The notes beneath the pieces are model-generated. The model saw only the letters and a list, made by a program, of their open reading frames with translations. It was not told the origin of the DNA and searched no databases. 64,000 nucleotides of DNA from Tridacna crocea (taxonomy: Eukaryota; Mollusca; Bivalvia; Cardiida; Cardiidae): the NCBI GenBank assembly GCA_943736015.1, contig OX031059.1:20212001-20276000 (forward strand), in the 5' to 3' direction. The position numbers and the translations under genes were made by a program. This document shows, in pieces, positions 10,489-58,707 of the stretch. Numbering within the stretch: position 1 is the stretch's first letter; the number at the start of each line of letters is the position of its first letter.

Positions 10489-10752
10489 AGCCGTGCTCTG
10501 ACAAAATGGGGCTTAATGCATATACGTGATAAATTATATCAAGCAAGCAATCAAACGGTTATGGATCCAGAATAGCCACTTTTTTTCCGAATAACTGACT
10601 TAAACATGAGGTAGACTGGTCCTTGGATATACAGAAAAAAATTACCATTAGCGAAAAGTTTCGGCCCAGGTCAGCCTGCGCGGACTGCTCAGGCTGACCT
10701 GGGTCGATACTTTTCGCAGATGCATTAAGCCCCCTTTTCACAGAGCATGGCT
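10489..10752 (+). mobile_element. F4 palindromic MITE
   Basis: Ends AGCCGTGCTCTGACAAAATG and its near complement ..CAGAGCATGGCT. Internal hairpin GGCCCAGGTCAGCCTGCGCG / GCTCAGGCTGACCTGGG at about 10662-10713. A rearranged second copy follows at about 10766-10900. Confidence 0.75.
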
Positions 10753-11823: not shown

Positions 11824-12043
11824 CTCTTCACCCCACAAGGCATTTCTATGGTATTTCTAATTGACCCTAATAACACCAAGGATGAAGCTGTTTCTTATGT
11901 GTATATTACACATTTTGATAGCATTCAAAACATTGTGACAAAAGGTGAAATTGCTCGTAACGAGCAATTTCGCCTTTTCCCACAATGTTTTCCATAGGCT
12001 CCTACAAGCAATGCGTAGAAATGAGTATCTATGGAGTAAAGGT
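11824..12043 (+). mobile_element. HPA-3 MITE
   Basis: TTAA at 11820-11823 and 12044-12047. CTCTTCACCCCACAAGGCAT start; stem GGTGAAATTGCTCGTAACGAG; right flank ATGAGTATCTATGGAGTAAA. First element of a contiguous MITE run to 13246. Confidence 0.85.
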
Positions 12044-14730: not shown

Positions 14731-14953
14731 CCCTTTACCCCATAAGGCATTTCTATGGTATCTCTGATTGACCTTTAATAACAGCAAGGATGAAGCCGTT
14801 TCTTATGTGTATATGACACCTTTTGATAGAGTAGAAAACATTGTGGCAAAAGGTGAAATTGCTCGTCACGAGCAATTTCACCTTTTGCCACAATGTTTTC
14901 TATAAAGGCTCCTAGAAGCAATGCGTAGAAATGAGTATTTATGGAGTAAAGGG
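14731..14953 (+). mobile_element. HPA-3 MITE with perfect variant stem
   Basis: TTAA at 14727-14730 and 14954-14957. Stem GTGGCAAAAGGTGAAATTGC pairs fully with GCAATTTCACCTTTTGCCAC. It differs from HPA-1 at four positions, all compensated in the opposite arm. Confidence 0.9.
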
Positions 14954-14957
14954 TTAA

Positions 14958-15139
14958 ATAACTAAAATGAAATGTTCAATTCGATAGTAGAAACCAAAAT
15001 GTTGCTACCTCAAGGTTATCTTTCGGGTTCTCTTTATCGGACAATGTAGATCCGAGATCAGACTGCACATTCTGTGCAGTCTGATCTTGGTCTACATTGT
15101 CCGCAAAAGGTAAGTGGGTTGCGCTTAGCAGCCTAAGGG
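14958..15139 (-). mobile_element. HPB MITE
   Basis: Shares TTAA 14954-14957 with the HPA-3 copy; right TTAA 15140-15143. Palindrome at about 15040-15102 with centre GCACATTCTGTGC. Confidence 0.85.
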
Positions 15140-18882: not shown

Positions 18883-19074
18883 GGGATCCACCAACCATTC
18901 TTAAGAACGTTCTTGGTCTTATTCTCAAGAATTTTCTACATTTGTAAGTAACACAACTTCTGATCGGCTAAACCGAATGGTTTAGCCAATCAGAAGTTGT
19001 GTTACTTACAAATTTGGAAAACCTTGGAGAATAAGACTAAGTATATTCTCAAGAATGGTTGGTGAATAAGGGCC
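18883..19074. mobile_element. F6 palindromic MITE
   Basis: TCCACCAACCATTCTTAAGA at the left against TTCTCAAGAATGGTTGGTGA at the right. Internal stem GTAAGTAACACAACTTCTGA / TCAGAAGTTGTGTTACTTAC around TTAGCCAATC. Other copies: 35019-35216, 43690-43878, 62819-63024. Confidence 0.8.
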
Positions 19075-22517: not shown

Positions 22518-22584
22518 GCGAAAAGTGTGAACCCTGGTCAGACTGCGCAATTCGCGCAGTCTGACCAGGGTTGACGCTTTTCGC
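22518..22584. mobile_element. F5 palindrome
   Basis: GCGAAAAGTGTGAACCCTGG pairs with CCAGGGTTGACGCTTTTCGC around GACTGCGCAATTCGCGCAGT. It is followed by TCTTTTTGCGTGATGGGTCA. A shortened relative is at 28660-28753. Confidence 0.8.
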
Positions 22585-24563: not shown

Positions 24564-24784
24564 CCCTTTACCCCATAAGGCATTTCTGTGGTATCTCTAA
24601 TTGACCCTAAATAACAGCAAGGATGAAGCCGTTTCTTATGTGTATATGACACCTTTTGATAGTGTAGAAACAATTGTGGAAAAAGGTGAAATTGCTCGTC
24701 ACGAGCAATTTCACCTTTTGCCACAATGTTTTCCAAAGGCTCCTACAAGCATTGCGTAGAAATGAGTATCTATGGAGTAAAGGG
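24564..24784 (+). mobile_element. HPA-3 MITE
   Basis: TTAA at 24560-24563 and 24785-24788. CCCTTTACCCCATAAGGCAT start; stem GGTGAAATTGCTCGTCACGA, with one mismatch relative to 14731-14953. Confidence 0.88.
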
Positions 24785-35018: not shown

Positions 35019-35216
35019 GGGCCCGTATTCACCAACCATTCTTGAGAATATTCTTAGGCTTATTCTTCAGAATTTTGCAAATGTGAAAGTAACAGAACGT
35101 CTGATTGGCTAAACCGGATGGTTTAGCCAATCAGACGTTCTGTTACTTTCACAGTCAGGAAATCCTGAAGAATAAGACCAAGAACATTCTTGAGAATGGT
35201 TGGTGAATACGGGCCC
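35019..35216. mobile_element. F6 MITE, intact
   Basis: GGGCCCGTATTCACCAACCA at left and TGGTTGGTGAATACGGGCCC at right are perfect inverted ends. Inner stem GTGAAAGTAACAGAACGTCT / AGACGTTCTGTTACTTTCAC. Confidence 0.88.
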
Positions 35217-39372: not shown

Positions 39373-39572
39373 CCCTTTCCCAAACAAGCCCTTGTTTTTA
39401 CGTGTCTGCAGCACAAGTTTTTGAAAACACTGTGGGAAAAGGAGAAATTGCTCGTAACGAGCAATTTCTCCTTTTCCCACAGTGTTTTATACCCATTTGG
39501 AGAACTTTATGCCATTTTTATCAAATTTGAAATTGTCGTCTGCAAACTCTTTCAGTTTGGAAGAGGAAAGGG
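39373..39572 (+). mobile_element. HPA-2 MITE with perfect CACTG/CAGTG stem
   Basis: TTAA at 39369-39372 and 39573-39576. AAAACACTGTGGGAAAAGGA pairs completely with TCCTTTTCCCACAGTGTTTT; loop CTCGTAACGAG. A worn HPA remnant follows to about 39670. Confidence 0.9.
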
Positions 39573-42461: not shown

Positions 42462-42994
42462 ACTGGTGAGAGCCAGGACATAAATAAGTATGTAAACTGT
42501 CGCAGTAATACAACTGAAATAGTCTATAGACAAAGCGATATTATTACCCTCACCCTCCGCTTCGTATGGGCGAACATGATTTTTCCGCACTATCTTTTGA
42601 CCTAACTCTTGGTAAAGGGACATTCGGACATTTGAGTAAAGTGTCGTCTCGGATCAGCCTGCGCAGTCCGCTCAGGCTAATCCGAGACGGCACTTCACGT
42701 CTACATTAGATTTTGTCCTTTAGTAGACTTCTGCAGAACAGAAAAAATCATATAAACGGAAAGTGCCGTCTTGGATTAGCCTGCGCGGACTGCGCAGGCT
42801 GATCCGAGACGACACTTTACTCAAATGTCCGAATGTCCCTGTACCAAGAGTTAGGTCAAAAGATAGTGCGGAAAAATCATGTTCGCCCATACGACGCGGA
42901 GGGTGAGGGTAATAATATCGCTTTGTCTATAGACTATTTCAGTTGTATTACTGCGACAGTTTACATACTTATTTATGTCCTGGCTCTCACCAGT
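42462..42994. mobile_element. 533 bp nested inverted repeat built around F3
   Basis: Outer arms of ~150 bp: ACTGGTGAGAGCCAGGACAT .. AACTCTTGGTA against TACCAAGAGTTAGGTCAAAA .. CTGGCTCTCACCAGT. The centre (42616-42840) is an F3 body with two hairpins of its own. F3-type sequence (ACGCAGATGTCCGAATGTCC .. TTGCATGCCAT) resumes outside the right arm to 43046. Confidence 0.75.
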
Positions 42995-48464: not shown

Positions 48465-48688
48465 CTCTTTACCACATGAGAAAATTTTAGACTGGTCCAA
48501 ATTTAAAGCATTTGCAGACGACAAAATAAAGATGACTGAAAAATTGAAATTTGTTCTGGGAAGGGTAGAAAACACTGTGGGAAAAGGAGAAAATGCTGGT
48601 TACCAGCATTTTCTCCTTTTCCCACAGTGTTTTCAAAAGGCTTCTTTCTCAGGGGCGTCAAAAGTAGGGATTGTGTGGTAATATAGGG
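48465..48688 (-). mobile_element. HPA-1 MITE with CACTG/CAGTG stem
   Basis: CTCTTTACCACATGAGAAAA to GTGTGGTAATATAGGG; right TTAA 48689-48692. AACACTGTGGG / CCCACAGTGTT base matched in both arms. Confidence 0.87.
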
Positions 48689-58488: not shown

Positions 58489-58707
58489 CCCTTTCCCAAA
58501 CAAGCCCTGGTTTTTAGGTGTCTGCAGTAAAAGTCTTTTGAAAACACTGTGGGAAAAGGAGAAATTGCTCGTAACGAGCAATTTCTCCTTTTCCCACAGC
58601 GTTTTCTACCCTTTTTGAGAACTTGCTGCCATATTCTCAAAATCTAAAATTTTTGTCTGCAAACTCTTTGTTTGGGCCAGTCTATTAATTTGTCGTTTGG
58701 GAAAGGG
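58489..58707 (+). mobile_element. HPA-2 MITE
   Basis: TTAA at 58485-58488 and 58708-58711. CCCTTTCCCAAACAAGCCCT start; loop CTCGTAACGAG; GTTTGGGAAAGGG end. Confidence 0.9.

Follow-up and report, generated by a model that had tools for sequence, protein, structure and literature searches.

The matched changes in the two arms of the hairpin at 14731-14953 are ordinary inheritance, and the hairpin itself is a palindrome at the centre of a piggyBac-like MITE, an element of about 222 bp that inserts at TTAA and is very abundant. The copy lies in a window of 64,000 nucleotides of Tridacna crocea DNA. The explanation that we favour, with a probability of roughly 0.6, combines three components: matched pairs are inherited, a few percent of single-arm changes are copied into the opposite arm, and mobilisation favours symmetric palindromes. 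The stems of the source lineages evolve slowly, by matched changes only. Inserted copies, on the other hand, mostly decay one arm at a time.

The element and its genomic setting

In the orientation of the element, a 67-nt hairpin is enclosed by a long flank of about 103 bp and a short flank of about 52 bp (Table 1). In the copy under study, the stem is perfect over window positions 14832-14902 (35 bp, 0 mismatches). Members of the family are about 222 bp long and have ends of the form CCCTTT...AAAGGG. The terminal inverted repeats begin with CCC, ends of the CCCTTTACC...GGGTAAAGGG type being found in the consensus and in the copies, and the family ends that would serve as the signature of an autonomous partner read TTAACCCTTTACC. 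Among 129 well-delimited copies, TTAA is present on both sides in 84, on the left in 106, and on the right in 99.

One genome was examined, which comprises 1.05 Gb in 31 contigs. A family profile, built from the copies of the window, gave 313 matches over 264 kb. Of these, 82 belong to the window; the remaining 231 come from 20 randomly placed 10-kb stretches (200 kb), where the family covers 21% of the bases. The random stretches were drawn by script within reach of 16 contigs and are an imperfect sample. A single short TTAA MITE-like family makes up about 21-22% of the sampled sequence (window positions 1-64000 together with L009-L028), an unusually high share. In the same sample, the gap between successive copies is below 10 bp in 60 of 294 cases, which suggests nesting or a tandem arrangement. 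The window also contains several other hairpin families, imperfect palindromes with a different sequence, at 15036-15104, 10651-10717, 22518-22584, 42462-42994, 18932-19021, and 35082-35153. Viral contigs that were scanned for the stem gave no match.

Table 1. Coordinates, in the window, of the element, its palindrome, its paired changes and related hairpins.
Feature	Position	Strand	Basis or remark
Left target-site duplication TTAA	14727..14730	.	sequence
MITE-like element, 223 bp, 'C' subfamily member, CCCTTTACCCC...GGAGTAAAGGG	14731..14953	+	sequence, subfamily alignment
Right target-site duplication TTAA	14954..14957	.	sequence
Palindrome left arm, 35 bp	14832..14866	+	0 mismatches
Palindrome right arm, 35 bp	14868..14902	+	0 mismatches
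Loop centre	14867..14867	.	'C' subfamily: C 29/35, complement G 4/35
Paired G>C, columns 123/163	14847, partner 14887	+	both arms in 32/35 subfamily copies
Paired A>T, columns 130/156	14854, partner 14880	+	both arms in 34/35
Paired A>T, columns 135/151	14859, partner 14875	+	both arms in 35/35
Paired G>C adjoining the loop, columns 140/146	14864, partner 14870	+	both arms in 34/35
Same-subfamily copy, stem half-changed (left arm C-type, right partly common type)	11826..12042	+	
Same-subfamily copy, one stem mismatch	24564..24784	+	
'B'-type hairpin, perfect, CACTG/CAGTG	39424..39488	-	
Common-type hairpin, perfect, CACTG/CAGTG	48568..48634	+	
'B'-type hairpin, CACTG/CAGCG, one mismatch	58540..58606	-	

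Inheritance of the paired changes

With the family consensus as reference, every stem change that an earlier, sequence-only reading had named in the 14731-14953 copy is present with its complement in the opposite arm, at four pairs. The subfamily to which this copy belongs (C) is young. It was aligned from 35 members (3 from the window, 8 genome loci, 20 short stretches, and 4 random stretches), and the stem of its consensus is perfectly palindromic. Members diverge from this consensus by 1.5% in their stems and by 3.6% in their flanks, figures that are biased low because most members were selected for their resemblance to the query. In full and on both arms, the four diagnostic pairs are retained by 32 of the 35 copies, and the changes are therefore no evidence of an event at the 14731-14953 locus. 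The sequence-only reading had also described the flanks of the copies as otherwise diverged, which is correct between subfamilies but not within C, where they are as close as just stated. Its base-of-stem change, from CATTG/CAATG to CACTG/CAGTG, can be read in two hairpins, those at 39424 and 48568; the copy at 58540 has it together with a further right-arm change (CAGCG) and so has one mismatch. Covariation of at least five stem positions was rightly recognised, as there are five diagnostic pairs, and more.

Sharing of stem variants (n ≥ 4) among flank neighbours was measured in 176 copies with a long flank. Four of six paired variants follow flank ancestry, namely 117T>C, 130A>T, 135A>T, and 140G>C, with three-neighbour sharing of 0.94, 0.87, 1.00, and 0.65, respectively. 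None of 65 single-arm variants does so in these 176 copies at p<0.01, and the paired variant 123G>A (n = 6) shows no tracking of the flanks (p 0.33). The neighbour test is matched by a flank tree of 329 tips: the four paired variants, carried by 22, 20, 18, and 5 copies, need 4, 2, 7, and 2 changes, respectively, and the four single-arm variants that were tried need 13/13, 14/14, 15/15, and 13/13.

The consensus stems of the three types (common, B, and C) are all perfect palindromes. Compared with the common-type stem, B (whose consensus was drawn from 13 copies) differs at 3 pairs and C at 4, with no unpaired difference in either, and the flanks differ from the common type at 38 of 154 (B) and 25 of 66 (C) alignable columns. 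The ratio of stem to flank distance is 0.40-0.50 in every bin. In 40 perfect-core copies, divergence from the consensus is 0.256 just outside the left end of the stem vs. 0.031 at the stem edge, the latter taken over eight stem-edge columns that lie mostly outside the selected core. Since arm copying alone would leave the substitution rate unlowered, spreading lineages are also under a constraint on their stems.

Single-arm and paired changes across copies

The stem was readable in 224 of the 313 matches, the other 89 being excluded for gaps at over 6 pairs. Over 33 stem pairs, these copies contain 1019 single-arm changes, 153 complementary doubles, and 72 non-complementary doubles. Matched change, which had been proposed as the general behaviour of the stem, is thus a property of the 14731-14953 copy and its lineage but not of copies in general. 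The sequence-only reading had named two observations that would count against it. One of them, single-arm changes no rarer than paired ones, is seen overall (1019 vs. 153) and again inside the C subfamily (31 vs. 2). The other, a lack of intermediate stems, is not: half-changed hairpins occur in the window at 11927 and 58312, and these may represent later single-arm decay.

Independent mutation is nevertheless insufficient, as had been argued, for 45.7 complementary doubles are expected from the column frequencies in the 224 copies of the window and the 20 random stretches vs. the 153 found. The doubles cluster at few pairs (140/146, 135/151, 117/169, and 123/163). Copies in which no more than 4 non-diagnostic pairs are changed contain 233 single and 16 paired changes, the latter vs. 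3.96 in permutations. In copies with at least 5 changed pairs, the paired excess is absent (10 vs. 9.92 and 31 vs. 29.83), so that copying, if real, is restricted to near-intact stems or is slow.

Genome-wide counts of exact cores

Exact matches to 53-nt cores were counted in the whole genome, an approach chosen to remove the effects of alignment and ancestry, and the counting covered two pairs, 122/164 and 133/153. The common perfect core is present in 43,372 copies. At pair 122/164, there are 1575 copies with left-arm G>A alone, 2297 with right-arm C>T alone, and 225 doubles vs. 83.4 expected under independence (ratio 2.70). In a slid control, which combines left 122 with the neighbour 163 instead of its true partner, a single count of 2660 is accompanied by 92 doubles vs. 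96.6 expected (ratio 0.95). Arms are therefore homogenised above the level of independent mutation, as expected of template switching at inverted repeats. Chance accounts for about 83 of the 225 G>A doubles. Forty were fetched among the first 100 of the 225 matches listed, and on the flank tree the 37 usable ones require 37 changes, vs. a mean of 35.5 after shuffling, which means that the G>A doubles are not one lineage.

At pair 133/153, singles of A>C number 56 and 58 in the two arms, and there are 71 doubles vs. 0.075 expected. Of these, 40 were fetched and 36 were usable; 31 of the 36 fall in one clade of 44 tips, whose support is modest (0.73) and which includes 13 tips without the label. 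Three doubles stand clearly outside this main clade (L155, L162, and L165), and two more have an uncertain placement (L157 and L175). The chance of at least 3 separate origins is about 1e-5. Inheritance thus explains most of the A>C doubles, and there were 3-5 additional origins. Expressed as a share of single-arm changes, the excess of doubles equals 3.5% for G>A and about 5-8% for A>C; approximately 4-8% of single-arm changes seem to be copied into the opposite arm. Arm-to-arm copying or hairpin-templated repair, which had been suggested for the hairpins, is consequently a live explanation across the genome, but there is no sign of it at 14731-14953, where the changes are inherited.

The two arms of pair 122/164 are not equally affected, right-arm C>T exceeding left-arm G>A despite a symmetric local context. 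Neutral, arm-independent mutation does not predict such unequal counts, which could arise from strand asymmetry, inheritance, or wobble tolerance.

Inversion of the loop

Among the 94 least-changed copies, 6 have the complementary base in place of the T at the loop centre, vs. 0.7% at other A/T columns of the stem; among all 197 copies, 29 do so, vs. 1.9%. The 29 loop-inverted copies need 26 changes on the flank tree and are not bound to a lineage. Recurrent inversion of the spacer is likewise expected of template switching at inverted repeats. G>A doubles show no significant enrichment in inversion over perfect stems (8/40 vs. 4/40, Fisher 0.35), and 2/40 A>C doubles carry it. An association of loop inversion with paired change, suggested at first by 6/20, was given up on the larger G>A sample, as was a fixed orientation of the loop, which ten copies read by eye had suggested and which the recurrent inversions in larger sets contradict.

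Proposed mechanism

As the comparisons above show, source lineages differ in their stems by matched changes only, copies inherit these differences, and the arms decay mostly singly after insertion. On top of this, a small share of the single-arm changes in otherwise intact stems seems to have been transferred, locus by locus, to the opposite arm. The excess of doubles was observed directly; its most likely cause is template switching, in which a replication fork would fold back on the palindrome or change strands there, a process that would also sometimes invert the loop centre. Matched changes would be kept in the lineages if only elements with a symmetric palindrome were mobilised efficiently. 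Plausibly, a dimeric transposase would read the palindrome as a dyad, as piggyBac transposase does its palindromic repeats, and with a symmetric site of this kind matched changes would be the tolerated ones. By this analogy, the restriction of source stems to matched changes may be due to selection for a palindromic transposase site.

Both processes may be joined in a two-stage ratchet, in which fold-back replication would copy a few percent of the single-arm mutations and transposition would then amplify only the symmetric stems through a dimeric transposase. We advance this ratchet tentatively, as a proposal with somewhat less than even odds. If it operates, the identical perfect stems, which number in the tens of thousands, would constitute a natural assay of template switching per site, and it suggests a possible reason why MITE palindromes remain symmetric. 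Covariation in a hairpin is usually taken as proof of selection on RNA. In this non-coding transposon, with more than 43,000 exact perfect cores, the single, paired, and slid states are open to direct counting, and the mutational share of covariation can thereby be separated from inheritance and selection.

Alternative explanations

A pure subfamily history would dispense with copying at individual loci: several old sources would have had their matched stems fixed by selection for symmetry. The diagnostic pairs that follow flank ancestry, the dominance of singles over complementary doubles, and the lack of a paired excess in older copies all agree with it. It is unlikely to be the full account, because the G>A doubles lie on unrelated flanks and exceed independence 2.7-fold, which the slid control does not, and because at least 3 A>C doubles fall outside the main clade where fewer than 0.1 would be expected. 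Paired variants could reach new flanks by ectopic gene conversion, through replacement of hairpins between copies (e.g., after cruciform cleavage), and the hairpins would be homogenised in the process. Perfect stems are indeed set in dissimilar flanks (mean flank distance 0.273 in the 40 perfect-core copies), with the sharp drop in divergence at the left stem end (0.26 to 0.03), and paired states are shuffled among types, 140 and 117 being found in all four combinations. Donors, however, would mostly be of the common type, and a variant with about 70 copies would seldom be donated. As the lineage-defining pairs track the flanks, and stems still differ between close flank neighbours, we consider conversion improbable.

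Selection on an RNA hairpin, either a small-RNA precursor or a structured transcript, would produce compensatory substitutions and was among the causes offered by the sequence-only reading; it receives little support here and is quite improbable. The element folds very stably (-95.1 kcal/mol, z -11.15), but any palindrome would. The larger number of right-arm C>T changes, which leave G.T, than of left-arm G>A changes at pair 122/164 is in the direction that such selection predicts, although it concerns one pair and is confounded with strand asymmetry, and the stem has a slight excess of C>T over G>A that is reversed in the flanks. Overall, singles that leave G.T (262) and those that leave A.C (230) are close in number; on these counts and on the comparison of C>T with G>A, selection for RNA wobble was set aside as the main cause. 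Rfam gave 0 matches above the gathering score in the window, single-arm changes are abundant, and it is not possible for most of the copies to be under selection individually. An artefact of sequencing, assembly, or palindrome alignment is very improbable: hairpins can be hard to sequence, but nothing in favour of an artefact was found, the counts are exact matches that do not depend on alignment, the slid control behaved as expected, and the doubles are spread over many contigs. The combination of inherited pairs, occasional arm copying, and symmetry-favoured mobilisation is the reading that we retain.

Comparison with known systems

A total of 118 piggyBac transposase-domain matches were detected in the genome, and among the six of these 118 loci that were examined there is no autonomous partner with the same ends. 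Two elements appear complete (L051, 834-3716, and L054, 464-3228), with matching TTAA-flanked ends and transposase-domain matches. Family matches at L050, considered as part of a piggyBac element, are actually degraded copies beside it. The present element resembles piggyBac-type MITEs in its TTAA flanks, in its terminal CCCTTT and AAAGGG, in its length, and in the presence of piggyBac transposase domains in the same genome. It differs from them in its long central palindrome and in its share of the random-stretch bases (21%). Compared with the autonomous piggyBac elements examined, only the first bases of the ends are in common; the piggyBac loci L053 and L054, for instance, share only TTAACCCTTT with the MITE ends. 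In a simple scan, neither of the two piggyBac elements with delimited ends had a palindrome with a score of at least 9 within 500 bp of its ends.

A literature search by titles and abstract openings found no account of paired arm changes in a MITE, which leaves the absence of one unproven, and a search with the sequence letters of the element returned unrelated papers only. The closest precedents come from template switching. Template switching in yeast inverts the loop together with homogenisation of the arms (PMC8604942), and template-switch mutation in RNA genes provides another precedent (PMC8794818). The MITE hairpins are like these cases of template switching and quasipalindrome correction in arm homogenisation, in spacer inversion, and in recurrence at independent loci. 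They are unlike them in that the process is deduced here from counts of single and paired states in a multi-copy transposon and not from a strain phylogeny.

The palindromic repeats of piggyBac are bound by two CRDs of a transposase dimer (PMC11707139). The MITE palindrome, which likewise lies inside a TTAA element, is by this likeness a candidate dyad site; it is central and about 33 bp long, whereas the piggyBac repeats measure 19 bp. Finally, the long inverted repeats of Caenorhabditis conserve their structure better than their sequence (PMC1803023). The MITE stems similarly keep their structure as their sequence changes, but where the Caenorhabditis repeats are long and belong to gene pairs, the feature described here is a short palindrome in a mobile element.
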